Below are positions 2,897 to 17,204 of a DNA stretch of 24,298 bases, piece after piece; position 1 is the stretch's first letter, and the number at the start of each line of letters is the position of its first letter. The notes beneath the pieces were generated by a model. That model saw nothing but the letters and a program-made list of their open reading frames with translations, made no database searches and was not told the origin of the DNA. The stretch comes from a virus: IMG/VR virus record IMGVR_UViG_3300013137_002098, positions 1-24,298 of that record; one strand, 5' to 3'. The translations under genes were made by a program, and so were the position numbers.

Positions 2897-3877
2897 ATGG
2901 CATTGAATTATTTTATTGGAACTTCTTGTACGGGACAACCGTCAAGATTCTTTGAAACTGAAGCAACTATTGTTTCAGGTAAAATTTACGAACTAATAGC
3001 CGGTTCCACAAACATTGGTTGTTGGACTTTGAACTCTTTTGATGAAACCCCTCTTGCCCAATTAGTAACAGTATTCAACGGTCCTTGGGAAAATTGCGTT
3101 GACTGTTTAGGAGACTTAACACCAACTCCAACCGCATCGGTAACACCAACTCCAACTCAAACACCAACTAACACCCCAACTCAAACCCAAACACCAACTA
3201 ATACTTCAACTCCGACACAAACACCAACACAAACCCAAACACAAACCTCAACCCAAACTCAAACTCAAACTCAAACCCAAACACCAACTAATACTTCAAC
3301 TCCGACACAAACACCAACTCAGACACAGACTCCGAGCGCTACAGCATCTAATACCCCCACACCTAGTATTACCCCCTCACCCACGGAAACGCAAACTTCA
3401 ACACCAACTAATACTCCAACACCAACTCAGACACCAACTCAGACACAAACACAAACACCAACTAATACCTCAACACCAACTCAGACACCAACTCAGACAC
3501 AAACACCAACCAATACTTCAACTCCAACCCAAACACCAACCAATACTTCAACTCCAACCCAAACACCAACCAATACTTCAACTCCAACCCAAACACCAAC
3601 ACAAACCGCAACTAACACTTCAAGTCCAACACAAACGCCAACCCAAACCTCAACAAGTACATCAACCCCGACCCCAACACCAACTCAGTTTGGAGTATTT
3701 GATGTCAACCAGCAATATGAGGCAGAAGCATGTATAACTTGTAGTGGTGTAACTTACACCGAAGCGTATCCACACCCTCAGGATTGGGTTCCTGTCGGCC
3801 CTGATGGAGGAAGACAAGGAACTGTAGTTGATTTAAGTGCTGTTGAACTTGGAGGTATGCACGGCCTTAACAATTAA
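2897..3877 (+). CDS. Thr/Pro/Gln-repeat protein, probable virion surface or fibre component
   Basis: This 326-residue protein has three parts. The N-terminal module (about 1-75) contains four cysteines, in TSCTG, GCWTL and NCVDCL. I recall similar small Cys-containing modules as recurring in phages of Bacteroidota. Residues 76-265 are an extended low-complexity region built of [16 protein letters not shown] and TQTQTQ. The C-terminal module (about 266-326) has an EACITCSG pair and ends in GGMHGLNN. Such Thr/Pro stalks usually space a binding head from its anchor and are targets for glycosylation, so a decoration or fibre role is plausible but not shown. There is no signal peptide or membrane helix. 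It has its own TATTTATA box and a CCATGGCA start. Confidence 0.6.
3118..3690 (+). repeat. Degenerate C/A-rich tandem repeats encoding [10 protein letters not shown]
   Basis: The coding strand is built of CCAACTCAAACA-like units, nearly devoid of G over more than 500 nt. It includes three exact head-to-tail copies of a 30-bp unit at 3511-3540, 3541-3570 and 3571-3600, starting CAATACTTCAACTCC. Unit length is a multiple of three, so copy-number changes by slippage or recombination keep the frame. Confidence 0.9.
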
Positions 3878-7609: not shown

Positions 7610-9370
7610 ATGACAAAAGAACAAGTCATTATTGAATACAAGAAGTGCATGAAAAGCACTCCTTATGCCCTGAAAACATATCTACAAACCTACGACAACA
7701 CAGTTTCGAGATATGTTCCCTTGGAATTATTTCAAGACCAAGTCCAATTGGTTGAGGATTATGAGGAACACAATGAAAATATTGCCTTAAAGTACAGACA
7801 AGCTGGTGTGTCTACCGTGACCGCCGCTTGGGCGAGTAAACGATTAGCTTTTGCAAGAAAAGAAAAACCTGAAAAAATTCTTATCATTGCAAACAAACTC
7901 GACACCTCAGTTGAATTTGCAAACAAAATTCGTGGTTTTACCGAACAATGGCCATCTTGGGTTGGTATAGGATTTGCACCCGAAAAAAACTCGGCTAGAC
8001 ACTTCAAATTGTCTAATGGTTGTGAAGTCAAGGCGGTTGCAACTTCAAAAGACGCACTCAGAGGTTATACACCAACAACCTTGATTTTTGACGAAGCGGC
8101 ATTTATTGAAGCCGATAGTGATTTCTGGGCGGCTTGTATGGCCTCACTTTCTACTGGTGGTAAAGTCGTTGTTATCTCAACACCAAACGGATATGACCCC
8201 ATTTACTATGAGATTTACGACCAATCACTACGTGGGATGAATGATTTCAAAATCACGGAAATGTATTGGTATCGAGACCCAAGATACACAAAAGACTTGT
8301 ACATGGTAAAAACTTCTGATATCGTTCATTTTTTGTTGAACAAAGAGGAATATCCCAAAGATGCTATTTTGGATTTATCAAACGAGGACAGAAAAACGCG
8401 TCAATTAACAACTCTACACAAATACATTGAGGATGGCTACAAACCATGTTCTTCTTGGTTTGAAAGTATGGTAAAAAAATTGAAGTACGACAAACGTAAA
8501 GTTGCTCAAGAATTGGAATGTAATTTCTTAGGCTCGGGAGACAACGTCTTTGATTCTCAAATGCTTCAAACCATACAAAAAAATGACGTGAAAGAACCCG
8601 AAGCTAAACTTGTGGGTGGACAACTATGGATTTGGAAAGAGCCCGAAAACGGTCACAAGTATGTAATGGGTGTTGATGTCTCTCGTGGAGATTCTGAAGA
8701 TTTTTCTTCAATCGAAATAATCGATTTTGATGCACGAGAACAAGTTTTGGAATTCGTAGGAAAAATTCCGCCCGACACTTTAGCGGAAATCGCATATAAA
8801 TGGGGTATGATGTATAATGCTCTTTGTGTTACTGATTTGACTGGAGGTATGGGTGTTGCGACATCAAGAAAACTCCAAGAGTTAGGGTATGAAAATTTCT
8901 ATTACGACGGGGTAGACATGGCAAATAAATGGAAATATGACCCGAGGATAAAAGAAAAAATTCCTGGTATAAATTTTAACAACAAAAGGGTCCAAATTAT
9001 TGCATCTTTTGAAGAGGCCATGAGACACGATTTCAAGATTAGGTCTACAAGACTCGTCAATGAAATGGGTACTTTTGTATACATAAACGGCCGACCTGAC
9101 CACCAAAAAGGACATCATGATGACTGTATTATGGCAATATCAATTGCAATGTATGTTGCCGAAGCTGCGTTCCCTTCTTTAGTAAAAGTGGTGAACCACA
9201 CAAAGGCAATGTTGAATTCTTGGTCTACTGTTGTAACGGAAAACAAGGATAAATCTGAATATTTCAACCCTGCAATTCCAATATCCAATCCTAGTGGACA
9301 GAATCAATTCAAAAACTATAGTGCAACAAGAAATGATTATGAGAAGTACGGTTGGTTATTTGGAAGGTAA
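7610..9370 (+). CDS. 17: Terminase large subunit (T4 gp17-like packaging ATPase/nuclease)
   Basis: The motor ATPase and headful nuclease that drives DNA into the prohead through the portal. At 586 residues it is close to T4 gp17 (610). The ATPase domain has a deviant Walker A, KYRQAGVST near 61-69, with the lysine at the front as in many terminases rather than GKT. Walker B is TLIFDEAAFIE (DE near 161-162), and a coupling motif VISTPNG follows. The RNase H-like nuclease has acidic residues in MGVDVSRGD (D near 356), CVTDLTGG (D near 408) and GHHDDCIMA (D504/D505). The start ATG lies 6 nt after the upstream stop, without a Shine-Dalgarno. The next gene is the portal, with no tail sheath or tail tube genes between, unlike T4. 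Confidence 0.95.
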   Translation: MTKEQVIIEYKKCMKSTPYALKTYLQTYDNTVSRYVPLELFQDQVQLVEDYEEHNENIALKYRQAGVSTVTAAWASKRLAFARKEKPEKILIIANKLDTSVEFANKIRGFTEQWPSWVGIGFAPEKNSARHFKLSNGCEVKAVATSKDALRGYTPTTLIFDEAAFIEADSDFWAACMASLSTGGKVVVISTPNGYDPIYYEIYDQSLRGMNDFKITEMYWYRDPRYTKDLYMVKTSDIVHFLLNKEEYPKDAILDLSNEDRKTRQLTTLHKYIEDGYKPCSSWFESMVKKLKYDKRKVAQELECNFLGSGDNVFDSQMLQTIQKNDVKEPEAKLVGGQLWIWKEPENGHKYVMGVDVSRGDSEDFSSIEIIDFDAREQVLEFVGKIPPDTLAEIAYKWGMMYNALCVTDLTGGMGVATSRKLQELGYENFYYDGVDMANKWKYDPRIKEKIPGINFNNKRVQIIASFEEAMRHDFKIRSTRLVNEMGTFVYINGRPDHQKGHHDDCIMAISIAMYVAEAAFPSLVKVVNHTKAMLNSWSTVVTENKDKSEYFNPAIPISNPSGQNQFKNYSATRNDYEKYGWLFGR

Positions 9371-9412: not shown

Positions 9413-11284
9413 ATGGATAATAGAAGTCTAACGGTTTGGCAAAGGTTAACAAGAGCCTTGGGTCCTGACGCATTAATGAATCAGGATTTTCCTGTTTACA
9501 AGTTAGATAAAAAAGAACTTCTCAGAACTACCGACAAGGCAGAATACGAGAGAGAAAAGCTTCAAGCCAAACAATCTTTTTACTTAGCAAATCAATTTGC
9601 TAAAGTTGAAAACAACCTATACACTCAAGCAATTTATTATGAGCCAAACCGTTTGGCATCATATTATGATTATGAGTCGATGGAGTATACTCCCGAAATT
9701 TCTGCGGCACTTGATATCTATGCCGAAGAAAGTACAACCCCCAACGAGGACGGTACTATCCTTCAAATTTATTCTGAATCTAAAAGAATAAAATCAGTTC
9801 TTGAGGATTTATTTTACAATTCTTTGGATATCAACACTAACTTACCAATGTGGACTAGAAACACTTGTAAGTACGGTGATGATTTTGTATACATGAGATT
9901 AGACCCTGAAAAGGGTATCATCGGCTGTCAACAACTTCCTAACATCGAAATCGAAAGATACGAGCAGGGGTTATCTACCCGTAATGCTTCGGTTGGTGTT
10001 CCAAATAAATCTGACGACAAAGGTCTTCGATTTACTTGGAAAACACAAAACATGGAATTCCAACCTTGGGAAATAGCCCACTTTAGATTGTTAGGTGATG
10101 ACAGAAAACTCCCTTACGGCACATCTATGTTGGAGAAATCTCGTCGTATTTGGAAACAACTTTTGTTGTCCGAGGATGCGATGTTAATCTACCGTACATC
10201 TCGAGCTCCTGAAAGAAGAATCTTCAAGGTTTACGTTGGAAACATGAATGATGATGATGTAGAGGCTTATGTACAGCGTGTTGCCAACAAGTTCAAAAGA
10301 GAACAAATTGTGGATTCTAAGACGGGTAATGTTGATATGAGATTCAACCAAATGGCGGTTGACCAAGATTATTTCATTCCGGTAAGAGACCCAGCACAAC
10401 CGAGTCCAATTGACACTTTACCAGGTGCACAAAACTTATCGGAGATTGCCGATATCGAATATATTCAGAAAAAATTGGTTACCGCACTGAGAATTCCTAA
10501 AGCGTTTTTGGGATTTGAGGAAACTGTGGGTGATGGAAAAACTTTAGCACTCCAAGACATTAGATTTGTAAGAACTATTAACAGAATTCAGAAATCTATG
10601 ATTCAGGAGTTGAACAAGATTGCTATTGTTCATTTGTTCTTGTTGGGATTCGAAGAGGAAATTTCTAACTTTACCTTAGGTCTTACCAATCCTTCGACTC
10701 AAGCCGACTTATTGAAAGTCGATATTTGGAAAGAAAAAGTTTTACTTTATCGTGATTTGGTTTCAGACCCTGGTAATGGAATTCAACCAGCATCATCTAC
10801 GTGGGCTAAGAAACACATATTTAACTGGTCGGATGATGAAATCCGTACAGATTTACTACAACAAAGAATGGAGAGAGCAATCGGTGAAGAACTCAAGAAT
10901 ACACCTACAGTTATCAGTAAAACGGGATTATTTGACCAATTAGATGCGTTGTACGGAAACAAACCTGGTGAAGGTGCCCCACAAGCCCCTCCAGGTGAAA
11001 CTACTGAACCAGCAGCCGCTGCGTTTGGCGGTGGAGGAGGTTTCGATTTGGGAGGTCCTGAATTGGGTGGTGAGTTGGCAGGTGGTGCACCTGAAGCTCC
11101 ACCGTTAGAGGGTGAAGAAACTCCACCAGCTCCTGAGGAAATCACACCCGAATCGGTAAAAAACAAAGATATGAATCTCTTAATTGAGAATGATTTGTAT
11201 GGGAACAAATATTTGAATTTGGGAGTTGCTCAACAAAAATTGGGTAAAATAGAAGAAGAGTTAGACAAGTTGTTGAATTCCTAA
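9413..11284 (+). CDS. 20: Portal vertex protein (T4 gp20-like)
   Basis: The portal ring through which DNA is packaged; it also nucleates prohead assembly. The 623-residue protein has the gp20-type core: EYTPEISAALDIYAEESTTP near 85-104, NTCKYGDDFVYMRLD, WEIAHFRLLGDDRKLPYGTS, DAMLIYRTSRAPERRIF and RIPKAFLGFEETVGDGKTLA. T4 gp20 is 524 residues. The excess is mostly a Gly/Pro/Ala/Glu-rich linker at about 517-578 (APQAPPGETTEP, FGGGGGFDLGG) followed by a short helical tail (LGVAQQKLGKIEEELDKLL). That tail could dock a partner in the core. Its own TATTTATA box lies 31 nt upstream of the ATG. Confidence 0.95.
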   Translation: MDNRSLTVWQRLTRALGPDALMNQDFPVYKLDKKELLRTTDKAEYEREKLQAKQSFYLANQFAKVENNLYTQAIYYEPNRLASYYDYESMEYTPEISAALDIYAEESTTPNEDGTILQIYSESKRIKSVLEDLFYNSLDINTNLPMWTRNTCKYGDDFVYMRLDPEKGIIGCQQLPNIEIERYEQGLSTRNASVGVPNKSDDKGLRFTWKTQNMEFQPWEIAHFRLLGDDRKLPYGTSMLEKSRRIWKQLLLSEDAMLIYRTSRAPERRIFKVYVGNMNDDDVEAYVQRVANKFKREQIVDSKTGNVDMRFNQMAVDQDYFIPVRDPAQPSPIDTLPGAQNLSEIADIEYIQKKLVTALRIPKAFLGFEETVGDGKTLALQDIRFVRTINRIQKSMIQELNKIAIVHLFLLGFEEEISNFTLGLTNPSTQADLLKVDIWKEKVLLYRDLVSDPGNGIQPASSTWAKKHIFNWSDDEIRTDLLQQRMERAIGEELKNTPTVISKTGLFDQLDALYGNKPGEGAPQAPPGETTEPAAAAFGGGGGFDLGGPELGGELAGGAPEAPPLEGEETPPAPEEITPESVKNKDMNLLIENDLYGNKYLNLGVAQQKLGKIEEELDKLLNS

Positions 11285-11304
11285 TATTTATTAGTGAATA
11301 AATA
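11285..11304 (+). promoter_or_regulatory. TATTTAT box forming a perfect 8-bp inverted repeat
   Basis: TATTTATT (11285-11292) and AATAAATA (11297-11304) are exact inverted copies around AGTG. The left arm is a plus-strand TATTTAT box 20 nt before the ATG at 11312, and the right arm is the same box on the minus strand. It starts right after the portal stop codon. Confidence 0.45.
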
Positions 11305-11311
11305 TGACCAC

Positions 11312-12019
11312 ATGACCTTCGGACAAATCAAATCAATCATCGAAAAAAATTTGGTAGAATCCTACAAAGATTCCTCTACCTTCAGAAAAACTCTCAAAGA
11401 GTTCAAACACAATGTACTTAAAGATAAGTCTTTTTCAAAGATTTACTCAATCTATGACGACCTTTCTACCCCTCAGAATTTATCTGAGAGTGATGCCAGA
11501 GAATTCTTAGATGAATCACTCACTGTTATCAGACATTTTTTGAAGACAAGTAACCTTCCGAAAAACGGTCAACAAGGAAAAAATTTATACGAGGACATTG
11601 ATAATTTGGTATACTTTGACAAAGTGGATATTAAAGAAAGAGTCGAGTCAAAAAAGAGAATTATCAACACACTTATTAGTGGAAAGAAAGGGGTTAATGA
11701 AGCCCCAAAAATTTCACTAAAGTCAATGGTTTCAATTGCAAACAAAACACTCAATAACTACATCGAGAACTTGGACGAATCAACCAAAAAAGATTTGTTT
11801 CATGTTATCGCATCCAAGAATGAAGAATTAGAAACAGAGTTCGAAAGTCTCAAAGAGTCGACTGTTTCTAAATTGAAAGATGTTTTGTCAAAAGAAGAAG
11901 ATTCAAGTATCAAATCAAAAATTACAGAAACAATAGAAAAAATTGAATCTGAAAAGTTTGACCAAATCAATTATGTAAGGTTGAAAAAATTAGAGGAATC
12001 TATTCTTCTTGATTCTTGA
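11312..12019 (+). CDS. Hypothetical helical protein between portal and protease
   Basis: This 235-residue, Lys/Glu/Ser-rich protein is predicted almost wholly alpha-helical. It has coiled-coil-like stretches (MTFGQIKSIIEKNLVESYKD at the start; FESLKESTVSKLKDVLSKEE near 180) and no recognisable domain. Several L-x-E or V-N-E sites followed by A or S (LSE/S, VNE/A, LKE/S) fit the T4 prohead-protease pattern, so an internal or core protein is possible. ATG 11312 is preferred over the in-frame GTG 11294, which lies inside the palindromic promoter element. The 3' end overlaps the convergent bS21 gene by 20 nt. Confidence 0.6.
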   Translation: MTFGQIKSIIEKNLVESYKDSSTFRKTLKEFKHNVLKDKSFSKIYSIYDDLSTPQNLSESDAREFLDESLTVIRHFLKTSNLPKNGQQGKNLYEDIDNLVYFDKVDIKERVESKKRIINTLISGKKGVNEAPKISLKSMVSIANKTLNNYIENLDESTKKDLFHVIASKNEELETEFESLKESTVSKLKDVLSKEEDSSIKSKITETIEKIESEKFDQINYVRLKKLEESILLDS

Positions 12020-12185
12020 ATTTTTCAACGTACTTAGCTTTGAGTTTTTGAGCACGTCTAGCAACTGATTTTTTGACAAATTCTTTCTTAGAATTTAATT
12101 TCTGATTCTGTCGAGTTTTGATAACTTTTGACTTTAGAATCTTCAGTGCTTTTTCAATGTTTTTGTCTACTTCAACTATTAGCAT
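12000..12185 (-). CDS. rpsU: Phage-encoded ribosomal protein bS21 homologue
   Basis: This 61-residue, strongly basic protein reads as small-subunit protein bS21. It has an N-terminal MLIVEVDKNIEKALKILKSK segment (the bS21 strand plus first helix), a basic middle and a C-terminal SVARRAQKLKAKYVEKFKNQ helix ending in QEE. As I recall, Bacteroidota bS21 also starts MLI, ends in EE and is about 64 residues. In Bacteroidota bS21 lies beside the 16S 3' end and helps mask the anti-Shine-Dalgarno. A viral copy could enter host ribosomes and bias initiation. It is the only minus-strand gene within the head block and overlaps the convergent 11312 gene by 20 nt. It has no Shine-Dalgarno; a near-match box (TATTTCT) lies about 8 nt upstream. 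Confidence 0.8.
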   Translation of the reverse strand: MLIVEVDKNIEKALKILKSKVIKTRQNQKLNSKKEFVKKSVARRAQKLKAKYVEKFKNQEE

Positions 12186-12261
12186 ATAATAGAAATATTT
12201 GGAATTGGTAAAAAAGTTTATTATTCTTTAATAAAATAAAAAGATACCAATCAGTATATTA

Positions 12262-12714
12262 ATGAAAAAAGGTAAAACGGTTAAAGTTAGCCAATATGAA
12301 TCAATTAAAACATTATACGGAACAGTCGACTCAAAGGATTTGAAATCTCTGTACATAAATCTACAAACATGGGTTTGTCCTAAAAAAGAAAGTGATAATT
12401 GGGATTCTGTGGTTGGGAAACTCACAAGAAATATCAAACATAGTGTTTATGAAAGTATCGATAGAGAAATGTTTTCTGATAAGTTCATCGTGGACTTGGA
12501 CCTTAGAACAAGCGGCATTCAAATTAACAAAAAATCGTTCATGAATTTGGAAATAAATCTATACACAACAATAGACATTGATTTCAAAGGTTCACGACTC
12601 AAAAAAAGTATCAAAAAAATCATCCGAGAAATTTACAAAGATTGTGTCATAAAAAATGATTATTTCACATTTACTCTAACCAAAGAAAAAGAAAAAATAA
12701 AAACTACGGACTAA
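12262..12714 (+). CDS. Hypothetical protein upstream of prohead protease
   Basis: This 150-residue basic protein has alternating strand-like segments (KFIVDLDLRTSGIQINKKSF, MNLEINLYTTIDIDF) and helices (LKKSIKKIIREIYKD). No family is recognised. It is soluble with no Cys cluster, and a small alpha/beta fold is likely. It is divergent from the bS21 gene, with a 76-nt AT-rich spacer that should hold both promoters; no full TATTTAT box is visible there. The protease starts 26 nt downstream behind its own box. Confidence 0.6.
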   Translation: MKKGKTVKVSQYESIKTLYGTVDSKDLKSLYINLQTWVCPKKESDNWDSVVGKLTRNIKHSVYESIDREMFSDKFIVDLDLRTSGIQINKKSFMNLEINLYTTIDIDFKGSRLKKSIKKIIREIYKDCVIKNDYFTFTLTKEKEKIKTTD

Positions 12715-12740: not shown

Positions 12741-13457
12741 ATGAAAGATTTACGTATTCTTGGTCCTCGAGAAAGTGGTAAGGGTATTCTAATAGAGATG
12801 GACGCGGGGTTTGTTTCCCCTAAAGACCCTCTTAACGAAGAAGTACTTAGAGAAAGAAAAGAATTGGATTATAGAAATCCATTTGAATTTTATGCCGTAC
12901 TCCAAAAATATGGTGTACCAAATAGAAACGGCAGAGTCTACCCTGAAAAAATTCTCAAAAGAGAAGCTGACAGATACAAGACCGCAATCAAAAAAGGTTT
13001 ATCAACATCTGAACTAAACCACCCTGAATCTTCATTAATTGATTTGGACCGTGTAGCACACATCATCACCGACATTTGGTGGGATGGGCACATTTTGATG
13101 GGTAAATTGAAATTACTCACCTCACCAGGGTTTCACGAAAGTGGAATAGTTTCAACCAAAGGTGACATTGCGGCTAACCTTATGAGACAAGGTGTAACCA
13201 TGGGTGTATCCTCTCGTGGTGTTGGGTCACTTAAAAAAGTCGGAGAACAAAATGAGGTACAAGATGACTTTGAACTCATCTGTTTCGACTTGGTTTCTTC
13301 ACCCTCAACCCCTGGTGCTTACCTATTTAACGAACCCGAAGAGAGAAGCATGTACGAAGAAAACCTCGATGAAGAAAGAAAACAAAAAATTTCTGACTCT
13401 GGAATGGGCGCGTCTGTTGATTTAATGAAAAAATTAACCGATTATTTAAGTCGTTAA
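12741..13457 (+). CDS. 21: Prohead core protease (T4 gp21-like)
   Basis: The serine protease that digests scaffold and trims capsid proteins after prohead assembly. At 238 residues it compares with T4 gp21 at 212. The fold signature is clear: YAVLQKYGVPNRNGRVYPEK near 51-70, the catalytic His in SELNHPE (H94), a strand block VAHIITDIWWDGHILMGKL, and the Ser in MGVSSRGVG (S157/S158). FELICFDLVSSPSTPGAYLF follows, as in gp21 homologues. It precedes the scaffold and capsid genes as in T4, but a small gene and two terminators separate it from the scaffold. Confidence 0.92.
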   Translation: MKDLRILGPRESGKGILIEMDAGFVSPKDPLNEEVLRERKELDYRNPFEFYAVLQKYGVPNRNGRVYPEKILKREADRYKTAIKKGLSTSELNHPESSLIDLDRVAHIITDIWWDGHILMGKLKLLTSPGFHESGIVSTKGDIAANLMRQGVTMGVSSRGVGSLKKVGEQNEVQDDFELICFDLVSSPSTPGAYLFNEPEERSMYEENLDEERKQKISDSGMGASVDLMKKLTDYLSR

Positions 13458-15386: not shown

Positions 15387-17204
15387 ATGGGAGCATTATT
15401 AGAAAGTGGTCTTGTTGGTAACATCGGTCTTAAGCACCTTAAGGTTATCAAAGAAGATACAATCAACAAATGGGACAAGTTAGGTTTCCTCGAGGGACTT
15501 AATGGACACCTTAAAGAGAACATCGCTCAGTTGTATGAAAACCAAGCGTCATATCTCATTAACGAAGCAGCATCAACTGCAGATACAGGTTCATTCGAAA
15601 CTGTTGTTTTCCCAATCGTAAGAAGAGTATTCTCTAAACTTTTGGCTAACGACATCGTTTCTGTACAAGCAATGAACCTTCCTATCGGTAAGTTGTTCTA
15701 CTTTGTACCAAACATTCAGTCATACACTGGGGCAAATGATAACGAGCACTGGGCACCTTTTGGAGCGCCTAACGCAGCTGCGGGTCAAACTCCAACTAGT
15801 GGATACGACTATAACACTCAAAAAGACCTTTACGATAGATTCTACGAAGGTAACGAACCCGCTTTGGACCCACCAGGTCTTTACGACTACTCTAAAGGTT
15901 CATTCTCAGCTATTACACCTGGTGTTACTGCTGGTGCTACAGGGGGTGTTGCTACTGTTGTATGGGCAGGTTCTGAATTAATAGTTTCAGGTTACGGCGA
16001 GGACAACTACAGAAAAGTACTTATTCTTTTATCAGGTTTTGCATCTGCTGGTGCGGGTCAATTGATTGGACCTAACGGTCAACCAATGGATACCGAAGAG
16101 TTTTTGACGGACCTTCAAATTAGAGGTGTTGCTGGAAACGTAAATACCGCTGCTAATGTAAACAACAACTACTTGTTCAGAGTTGTTACTCAAAGATACG
16201 GTAAAGGTATTGTTCAATACGGTCAGAACGAAACTCTAGCATTCCCAAATAGTTTAACTGACGGTGGTTCTTACTATGATGTTTGTGACGCTGAAGGTAA
16301 AATTTACCTCGAAGTTGACCTTCAAGTTCCTGTTTGTATTTCTTGTGGTGATTCATCACTTGACGGGTACACGGGTTCAACGTTCTCTTCTTCTACGGCT
16401 ACTAACAACGCGTTCTTAGCGACTTACAGAATCTACAAGAATCTCGAATTCGAAGATAAAATTGGTGAAGTTTCTTTTGACCTTCAGTCTGTGACTGTTT
16501 CGGTTACTGAAAGAAAACTTAGAGCTCAATGGTCACCTGAAATGGCTCAGGACGTAGCTGCGTTCCACAACATCGACGCTGAAGCTGAATTGACAGCTTT
16601 ATTGTCAGAACAAGTAGCTGCGGAAATTGACCGTGAAATCTTAAGAGATTTGAGAAAAGCAGCATCTTGGAACCTTCGTTGGGACTACAACGGATGGAAG
16701 AGATTCTCTGCTGGTACTACTCCTTACACTCAAAAGGACTGGAACCAAACTCTTATCACAGCAATCAACCAAATCTCAGCACAAATCCACAAATCTACTT
16801 TAAGAGGTGGAGCAAACTGGATTGTTGTATCTTCTGAGGTATCTGCAATCTTTGATGACTTGGAGTACTTCCACGTATCAAACGCAGCTCCTGAGCAAGA
16901 CCAATACAACATGGGTATTGAGAGAGTTGGAACATTGGCAGGTAGATATCAAGTTTACCGTGACCCATACTTCCCAGCAAACCAAGTTTTGTTAGGACAC
17001 AAGGGTACTTCGTTACTTGATACAGGTTACATCTACGCACCGTATGTACCTTTACAACTCACTCCAACAATGTACAACCCATTCAACTTCACACCAATCA
17101 AGGGTATCATGACCAGATACGCTAAGAAGGTGGTGAACAACCGTTTCTACGGACGTATCACAGTTGATGGTGTAAGAACATTCGACTTAAGAGAATTGAG
17201 ATAA
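15387..17204 (+). CDS. 23: Major capsid protein (T4 gp23-like)
   Basis: The HK97-fold shell protein. The N-terminus matches gp23 precursors: NKWDKLGFLEGLNGHLKENI, ENQASYLINEAASTADTGSF, then FPIVRRVFSKLLANDIVSVQ and AMNLPIGKLFYFVPN. The gp21 cleavage site (I/L-x-E/A) is visible as L-I-N-E/A, after E60 (T4 cuts after E65). Later landmarks are RKLRAQWSPEMAQDVAAFHN, LSEQVAAEIDREILRDLR, the GGANWIVVSSEVSAI strand and YVPLQLTPTMYNPFNFTPIK near the end. At 605 residues it exceeds T4 gp23 (521), mainly through extra sequence at about 110-330, a likely surface insertion. Leader AACAAAAATTAAAA with no Shine-Dalgarno; no box in the 33-nt gap, so it is probably transcribed with the scaffold gene. Confidence 0.95.
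   Translation: MGALLESGLVGNIGLKHLKVIKEDTINKWDKLGFLEGLNGHLKENIAQLYENQASYLINEAASTADTGSFETVVFPIVRRVFSKLLANDIVSVQAMNLPIGKLFYFVPNIQSYTGANDNEHWAPFGAPNAAAGQTPTSGYDYNTQKDLYDRFYEGNEPALDPPGLYDYSKGSFSAITPGVTAGATGGVATVVWAGSELIVSGYGEDNYRKVLILLSGFASAGAGQLIGPNGQPMDTEEFLTDLQIRGVAGNVNTAANVNNNYLFRVVTQRYGKGIVQYGQNETLAFPNSLTDGGSYYDVCDAEGKIYLEVDLQVPVCISCGDSSLDGYTGSTFSSSTATNNAFLATYRIYKNLEFEDKIGEVSFDLQSVTVSVTERKLRAQWSPEMAQDVAAFHNIDAEAELTALLSEQVAAEIDREILRDLRKAASWNLRWDYNGWKRFSAGTTPYTQKDWNQTLITAINQISAQIHKSTLRGGANWIVVSSEVSAIFDDLEYFHVSNAAPEQDQYNMGIERVGTLAGRYQVYRDPYFPANQVLLGHKGTSLLDTGYIYAPYVPLQLTPTMYNPFNFTPIKGIMTRYAKKVVNNRFYGRITVDGVRTFDLRELR

Follow-up and report, generated by a model that had tools for sequence, protein, structure and literature searches.

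The window analysed here is the whole of a virus fragment of 24,298 bases, and it carries a head module of the T4 type in which genes for gp20-, gp21-, gp23- and gp17-like proteins lie together (PF07230, PF03420, PF07068 and PF03237). Between the portal and prohead protease genes of this module, a gene for a 61-residue homologue of ribosomal protein bS21 runs on the opposite strand. Both of its flanking genes are on the plus strand; the bS21 gene converges with the first, their 3' ends overlapping by 20 nt, and diverges from the second. The features are summarized in Table 1. Elsewhere in the window, the left end (3-2063) encodes a ClpA/B-like ATPase, a UvrB/C-motif protein and a KTSC-domain protein, and a 326-amino-acid open reading frame at 2897-3877, consisting largely of PTxTPTQT-type repeats and strongly C-skewed, probably specifies a structural or fibre protein.

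Table 1. Features of the head module and of the antisense bS21 gene in the 24,298-base window.
Feature	Position	Strand	Evidence or remark
Terminase large subunit (TerL)	7610..9370	+	PF03237, phrog_2
Portal protein, gp20-like	9413..11284	+	PF07230, 260 bits
Helical protein, convergent neighbour of bS21	11294..12019	+	Start may be ATG 11312; model pLDDT 71
bS21 homologue, 61 aa, ATG start	12000..12185	-	PF01165, PDB 7jil, dN/dS, synteny
Codon of Tyr52, equivalent of F. johnsoniae Tyr54, anti-SD masking residue	12030..12032	-	Alignments
Phage-only block, residues 16-28 ILKSKVIKTRQNQ, end of helix 1 and linker	12102..12140	-	Pattern K[SGNR]KV[IV][KR]T[KR]Q
TATTTCTATTAT, putative promoter -10-like element abutting ATG	12186..12197	-	Phased motif, conserved in relatives
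Alpha/beta protein, divergent neighbour of bS21	12262..12714	+	Model pLDDT 89
Prohead protease, gp21-like	12741..13457	+	PF03420, 87 bits
Major capsid protein (MCP), gp23-like	15387..17204	+	PF07068, 249 bits

The first-pass annotation had read the antisense frame as a bS21 homologue of Bacteroidota type and had named a profile search as the check that could overturn this. The search returned the Pfam family Ribosomal_S21 (PF01165) at 29.1 bits (E 8e-7), above the gathering cutoff of 27, and the best PDB match by phmmer is the bS21 of Flavobacterium johnsoniae (7jil, E 8e-7). Identity to two Bacteroidota structural bS21 proteins, the closest solved relatives, is 40-42% in the alignment made here. 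The protein misses the NCBIfam S21 equivalog TIGR00030 (16.3 bits against a cutoff of 28.95), and a PHROGs search with it returned no S21 family. Judged by its sequence, it is a divergent bS21 homologue that is filed outside the TIGR00030 equivalog, and the miss fits the divergent helix-1 and linker block described below. The frame is not a chance one, because comparison with its nearest relative (L002) gives 12 synonymous changes and 1 nonsynonymous change, and dN/dS against more distant phages is approximately 0.05-0.15 where it can be estimated. The gene is thus under strong purifying selection.

For a comparison of synteny, 80 IMG/VR loci with the bS21 protein were collected. The antisense placement noted in the first-pass annotation is a property of the group, as in 79/80 of these loci bS21 lies on the strand opposite to every detected homologue of TerL, portal, protease, scaffold, MCP and the neighbouring genes. 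The exception (L031, in the 46-kb record G015) has a bS21 that bears the family signature but lies outside the syntenic setting, and no match to a T4-type portal was obtained in that record. The layout agrees with that of Bacteroidetes phages, their hosts predicted, in which bS21 has been found on the reverse strand among capsid genes (Chen et al., 2022; PMC9723584): in the window and in the same 79 of 80 relatives, bS21 is antisense within the TerL-portal-protease-MCP region. In two of the relatives (L020 and L021) the portal frame is approximately 330 residues longer than in the others (948 aa in L021) and is uninterrupted; the extra length may be due to an intein or to another insertion in frame. 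Fold predictions and searches on the two neighbours of bS21 found no function, the single strong structural match of the divergent neighbour being an uncharacterised phage protein. The convergent neighbour is kept beside bS21 in relatives. Either gene was considered as an obligate partner of bS21 (the bS21_CN of Chen et al.) and rejected for these phages, since both are also present in relatives that lack bS21.

Alignment with host bS21 proteins, a check proposed with the first-pass annotation, divides the phage protein into two parts. Phage and host sequences (33 distinct phage and 98 host) overlap well over much of the C-terminal half, and the ribosome-binding residues are kept. In F. johnsoniae, bS21 masks the anti-Shine-Dalgarno (anti-SD) sequence and Tyr54 has a role in this (McNutt et al., 2023; PMC9976891). 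The equivalent position is Tyr52 in the window protein, giving it the aromatic residue that stacks on A1534 in bS21 of the Bacteroidia type, and Tyr, His or Phe in 81/81 phage sequences; the Bacteroidota character proposed at first reading is thereby borne out. At most positions of residues 16-28, the residues used in the same phage and host sets are nearly non-overlapping. The pattern K[SGNR]KV[IV][KR]T[KR]Q is shared by all distinct phage copies (33/33 in the first set and 48/48 in a set anchored on the protease), and 156 distinct host proteins include no instance of it. The location of this block near the mRNA path comes from Chen et al. (2022; PMC9723584). In a tree of the short alignment, which has few informative columns, the phage proteins form one group apart from the hosts (SH-aLRT 98). 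Assignment of a host from this tree was attempted and abandoned, as the phage copies group apart, informative columns are few and no host order can be named.

The upstream region of the bS21 gene resembles those of other genes of the phage family. In 450 upstream regions from seven phage records, with genes called by a simple open reading frame rule, TATTTAT occurs 125 times in the sense and 37 times in the antisense orientation, with peaks before the ATG at -12/-11 (25 sense versus 0 antisense) and at -23 to -19 (44 versus 2). The oriented form TATTTAT(A) is seen in the upstream regions of the window and of L192-L211 at the same phases, and from its sequence and position it looks like the promoter -10 element of the phage family. 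A literature search for the TATTTAT string gave nothing relevant. Before the bS21 gene, the variant TATTTNTANTAT occupies positions -12 to -1 exactly, and 75% of 69 distinct bS21 leaders, versus 1.5% of shuffles, agree with it at 8 or more of its 10 fixed positions; in these leaders, an TGTCAAAATTTT element often lies approximately 25 nt further upstream. Since transcription directed by a -10-type element at position -12 relative to the ATG would begin on the start codon or immediately beside it, the bS21 transcript is predicted to be leaderless and free of a Shine-Dalgarno (SD) sequence. In F. johnsoniae, 87% of leaders are longer than 10 nt, with a mean of 33 nt (PMC6847099). The Bacteroidota housekeeping promoter TAnnTTTG was considered for the window gene and is absent upstream of it. 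Some relatives carry TATATTTG approximately 22 nt upstream of the bS21 ATG, for which a -33/-7 spacing is unconvincing, and scans of the surroundings of the bS21 gene for sigma-70 and terminator consensus sequences performed no better than shuffles.

Host and phage bS21 genes differ in their use of SD sequences. In F. johnsoniae, ribosomes that lack bS21 read the extended SD of rpsU, the bS21 gene, which amounts to autoregulation, and rpsU of many other Bacteroidota likewise has an extended SD translated in this way (McNutt et al., 2023; PMC9976891). An SD core is present in 21/87 sampled Bacteroidia rpsU leaders and in 0/27 phage bS21 leaders (Fisher P 0.003, uncorrected for relatedness and only indicative). 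The window leader lacks the pairing expected of a host-type, SD-autoregulated rpsU, its computed duplex with the anti-SD having an energy of +1.9 kcal/mol, and pairing of -6 kcal/mol or stronger is reached in 4/69 phage bS21 leaders. Because the phage leader is without an extended SD, autoregulation of this kind is not expected for the phage gene. The other genes of the window phage are also mostly without SD, which together with the phased promoter motif bears out the earlier description of SD-poor phage genes with short leaders, the leaders being predicted ones.

A search anchored on the protease instead of bS21, among loci with enough upstream sequence, found 60 loci with bS21 and 6 without, and L318 is a seventh without (the others being L319, L322, L327, L338, L346 and L350). 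These loci keep both neighbouring genes, and the gap between the neighbours is 126-130 nt versus a median of 264. In the copy folded, from L346/L350, the gap contains a terminator-like feature, a hairpin (-17.7 kcal/mol, z -5.9) with a T-run after it. Searches of the rest of the 309-kb (G177) and 152-kb bS21-less records gave no bS21. The phages without bS21 form one group in the protease tree (97/83) and in the portal tree with outgroups (SH-aLRT 99). As this group is nested inside phages with bS21, a single secondary loss of the gene is implied, with moderate support at the intermediate nodes. The phased promoter motif recurs in the 309-kb record, where SDs are equally weak, and SD use does not differ between phages with and without bS21.

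These comparisons bear on how a phage bS21 could act. The reading proposed here, which we hold to be probable though only just, is that the phage protein would load onto the host 30S subunit late in infection, replacing or supplementing the host bS21 and escaping host feedback. Its C-terminal half with Tyr52 would keep the 3' tail of 16S rRNA masked as the host protein does, and the helix-1 and linker block would be the part able to alter mRNA handling or retention on the 30S subunit. Its own promoter on the antisense strand, of the kind general in this phage, would yield a leaderless mRNA without SD, and on the evidence of the leader the phage gene would bypass the SD-based feedback acting on host rpsU; filling of 30S subunits by phage bS21 may lower translation of host rpsU as well. 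Support for replacement comes from the family match, the selection, the conserved antisense placement, the host-like C-terminus joined to a phage-only block, the single phage group, the SD contrast with rpsU and the promoter-like elements at fixed distance. It also comes from the autoregulation and Tyr54 results of McNutt et al., from late transcription of bS21 alongside structural genes (Chen et al., 2022; PMC9723584) and from the physical incorporation of the viral bS21 of phage HTVC008M into E. coli 70S ribosomes (Mizuno et al., 2019; PMC6375957). Counting against it are the TIGR00030 miss, the 4/69 leaders with the stronger anti-SD pairing, the approximately 5% in vitro activity of those E. 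coli ribosomes (Mizuno et al., 2019; PMC6375957) and the clade of close relatives that lives without bS21. Feedback escape would be relevant in some hosts only, because approximately one quarter of the sampled Bacteroidia rpsU leaders have an extended SD, and the absence of an SD need not have been selected for escape, because it is the rule in the phage's other genes.

The main alternatives differ in whether the phage protein would choose among messages. Chen et al. (2022; PMC9723584) hypothesized preferential translation of phage transcripts, an idea that the first-pass annotation shares; a phage bS21 would replace the host copy, and the preference would come from the divergent N-terminal part beside the mRNA path. 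A block that every sampled phage copy has and that host copies lack favours such specialised ribosomes, as does late expression with structural genes, and a discriminating feature does exist in phage leaders predicted to be very short or absent versus the F. johnsoniae mean of 33 nt. The argument made at first reading, that viral bS21 favours phage mRNAs since they are SD-less, is not supported in that form, although the homologue, its Bacteroidota type, its antisense position and the SD-poor genes all are. Bacteroidota host mRNAs are SD-less as well (PMC6847099; PMC9976891), so SD-lessness cannot explain selectivity; masking of the anti-SD alone is non-discriminating because the phage protein keeps the masking residue; and SD-poor, short-leader genes do not require a phage bS21, because the bS21-less sister phages share these features. 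Selective translation through the phage-only block and leader length is possible from the sequences, and the specialised ribosome as a whole is rather doubtful. Simple supply fares a little better while still falling on the unlikely side: bS21, essential in F. johnsoniae (McNutt et al., 2023; PMC9976891), may become limiting once host expression stops, and the phage would top it up without selectivity, keeping 30S subunits complete during heavy late synthesis. The dynamic, exchangeable ribosomal proteins are those that viruses tend to encode (Mizuno et al., 2019; PMC6375957), and bS21 is among the late genes with a putative promoter of its own, but supply alone gives no reason for a phage-only block to be fixed and to differ from all the host copies sampled.

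An extension of the feedback idea is that a leaderless, SD-free message would be readable by bS21-replete ribosomes, so that filling of 30S subunits would switch off SD-dependent host rpsU and lock the ribosome pool in the phage form, the phage-only block tuning initiation towards mRNAs with very short leaders; we regard this as improbable. It is very unlikely that the protein is a host shut-off factor whose ribosomes are largely inactive or poor on host messages and so lower host translation. The low activity of ribosomes with HTVC008M bS21 would suit such a factor, but that test used an alien host, and expression late, when the phage needs ribosomes, speaks against a general poison. The least probable of the readings takes bS21 out of the ribosome altogether, as an RNA-binding or virion protein or as an antisense transcript controlling the convergent neighbour. 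The 20-nt overlap of 3' ends, the conserved convergent position and the possible packaging of bS21 suggested by Chen et al. (2022; PMC9723584) are consistent with it, but the protein sequence is under purifying selection and keeps the residues that bind the ribosome, both signs of a ribosomal protein.

The bS21 phages are a good system in which to ask whether viruses build specialised ribosomes, because a ribosome structure and bS21 genetics exist for F. johnsoniae, relatives with and without bS21 are available, and the phage-only residues are few enough for one-by-one swaps. The locus adds one member to a published group; it is genuine and well conserved, and by the standard of the literature it is unremarkable. 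A sharper test is gained, in that the features to measure are leader length and SD autoregulation rather than SD-lessness.

Among known systems, the viral bS21 of Pelagibacter phage HTVC008M is alike in being under purifying selection and in the proposed replacement of host bS21; it differs in host phylum and in that its incorporation has been shown in E. coli, whereas the window protein is known from sequence. The host bS21 of F. johnsoniae (7jil) shares the length and the C-terminal anti-SD-masking residues including Tyr54. The phage protein is 40% identical to it, with the helix-1 and linker block replaced, and the phage leader lacks the extended SD of rpsU; McNutt et al. (2023; PMC9976891) also speculated on bS21 phages. 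The cultured Microcystis phage Mel-JY01 (PP395634.1) has RpsU in its head module, and of the annotated relatives found its portal comes closest to that of the window (37%); its rpsU (L362:8162-8389) lies downstream of the prohead protease on the same strand and has neither the phage-only block nor a Tyr54 equivalent. A 735-kb phage (L358, LR756501.1) has a bS21 gene with a strong SD, AAAGGAGGATAAATG, unlike the family of the window. The closest system is the bS21 phages of Chen et al. (clades a-e), which have the same TerL, portal, protease and MCP setting, a reverse-strand bS21, an aromatic residue at the Tyr54 position and an N-terminal part that diverges in a phage-specific way (Chen et al., 2022; PMC9723584). 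No clear functional difference was seen between them and the window, a 24-kb fragment beside genomes of 293-331 kb. The antisense layout and the idea of ribosome retuning were already published in 2022; this analysis adds a wider sampling of the phage-only block, a conserved putative promoter of leaderless type, the difference from host rpsU in SD use, and one loss of bS21, with a hairpin resembling a terminator where the gene would lie.
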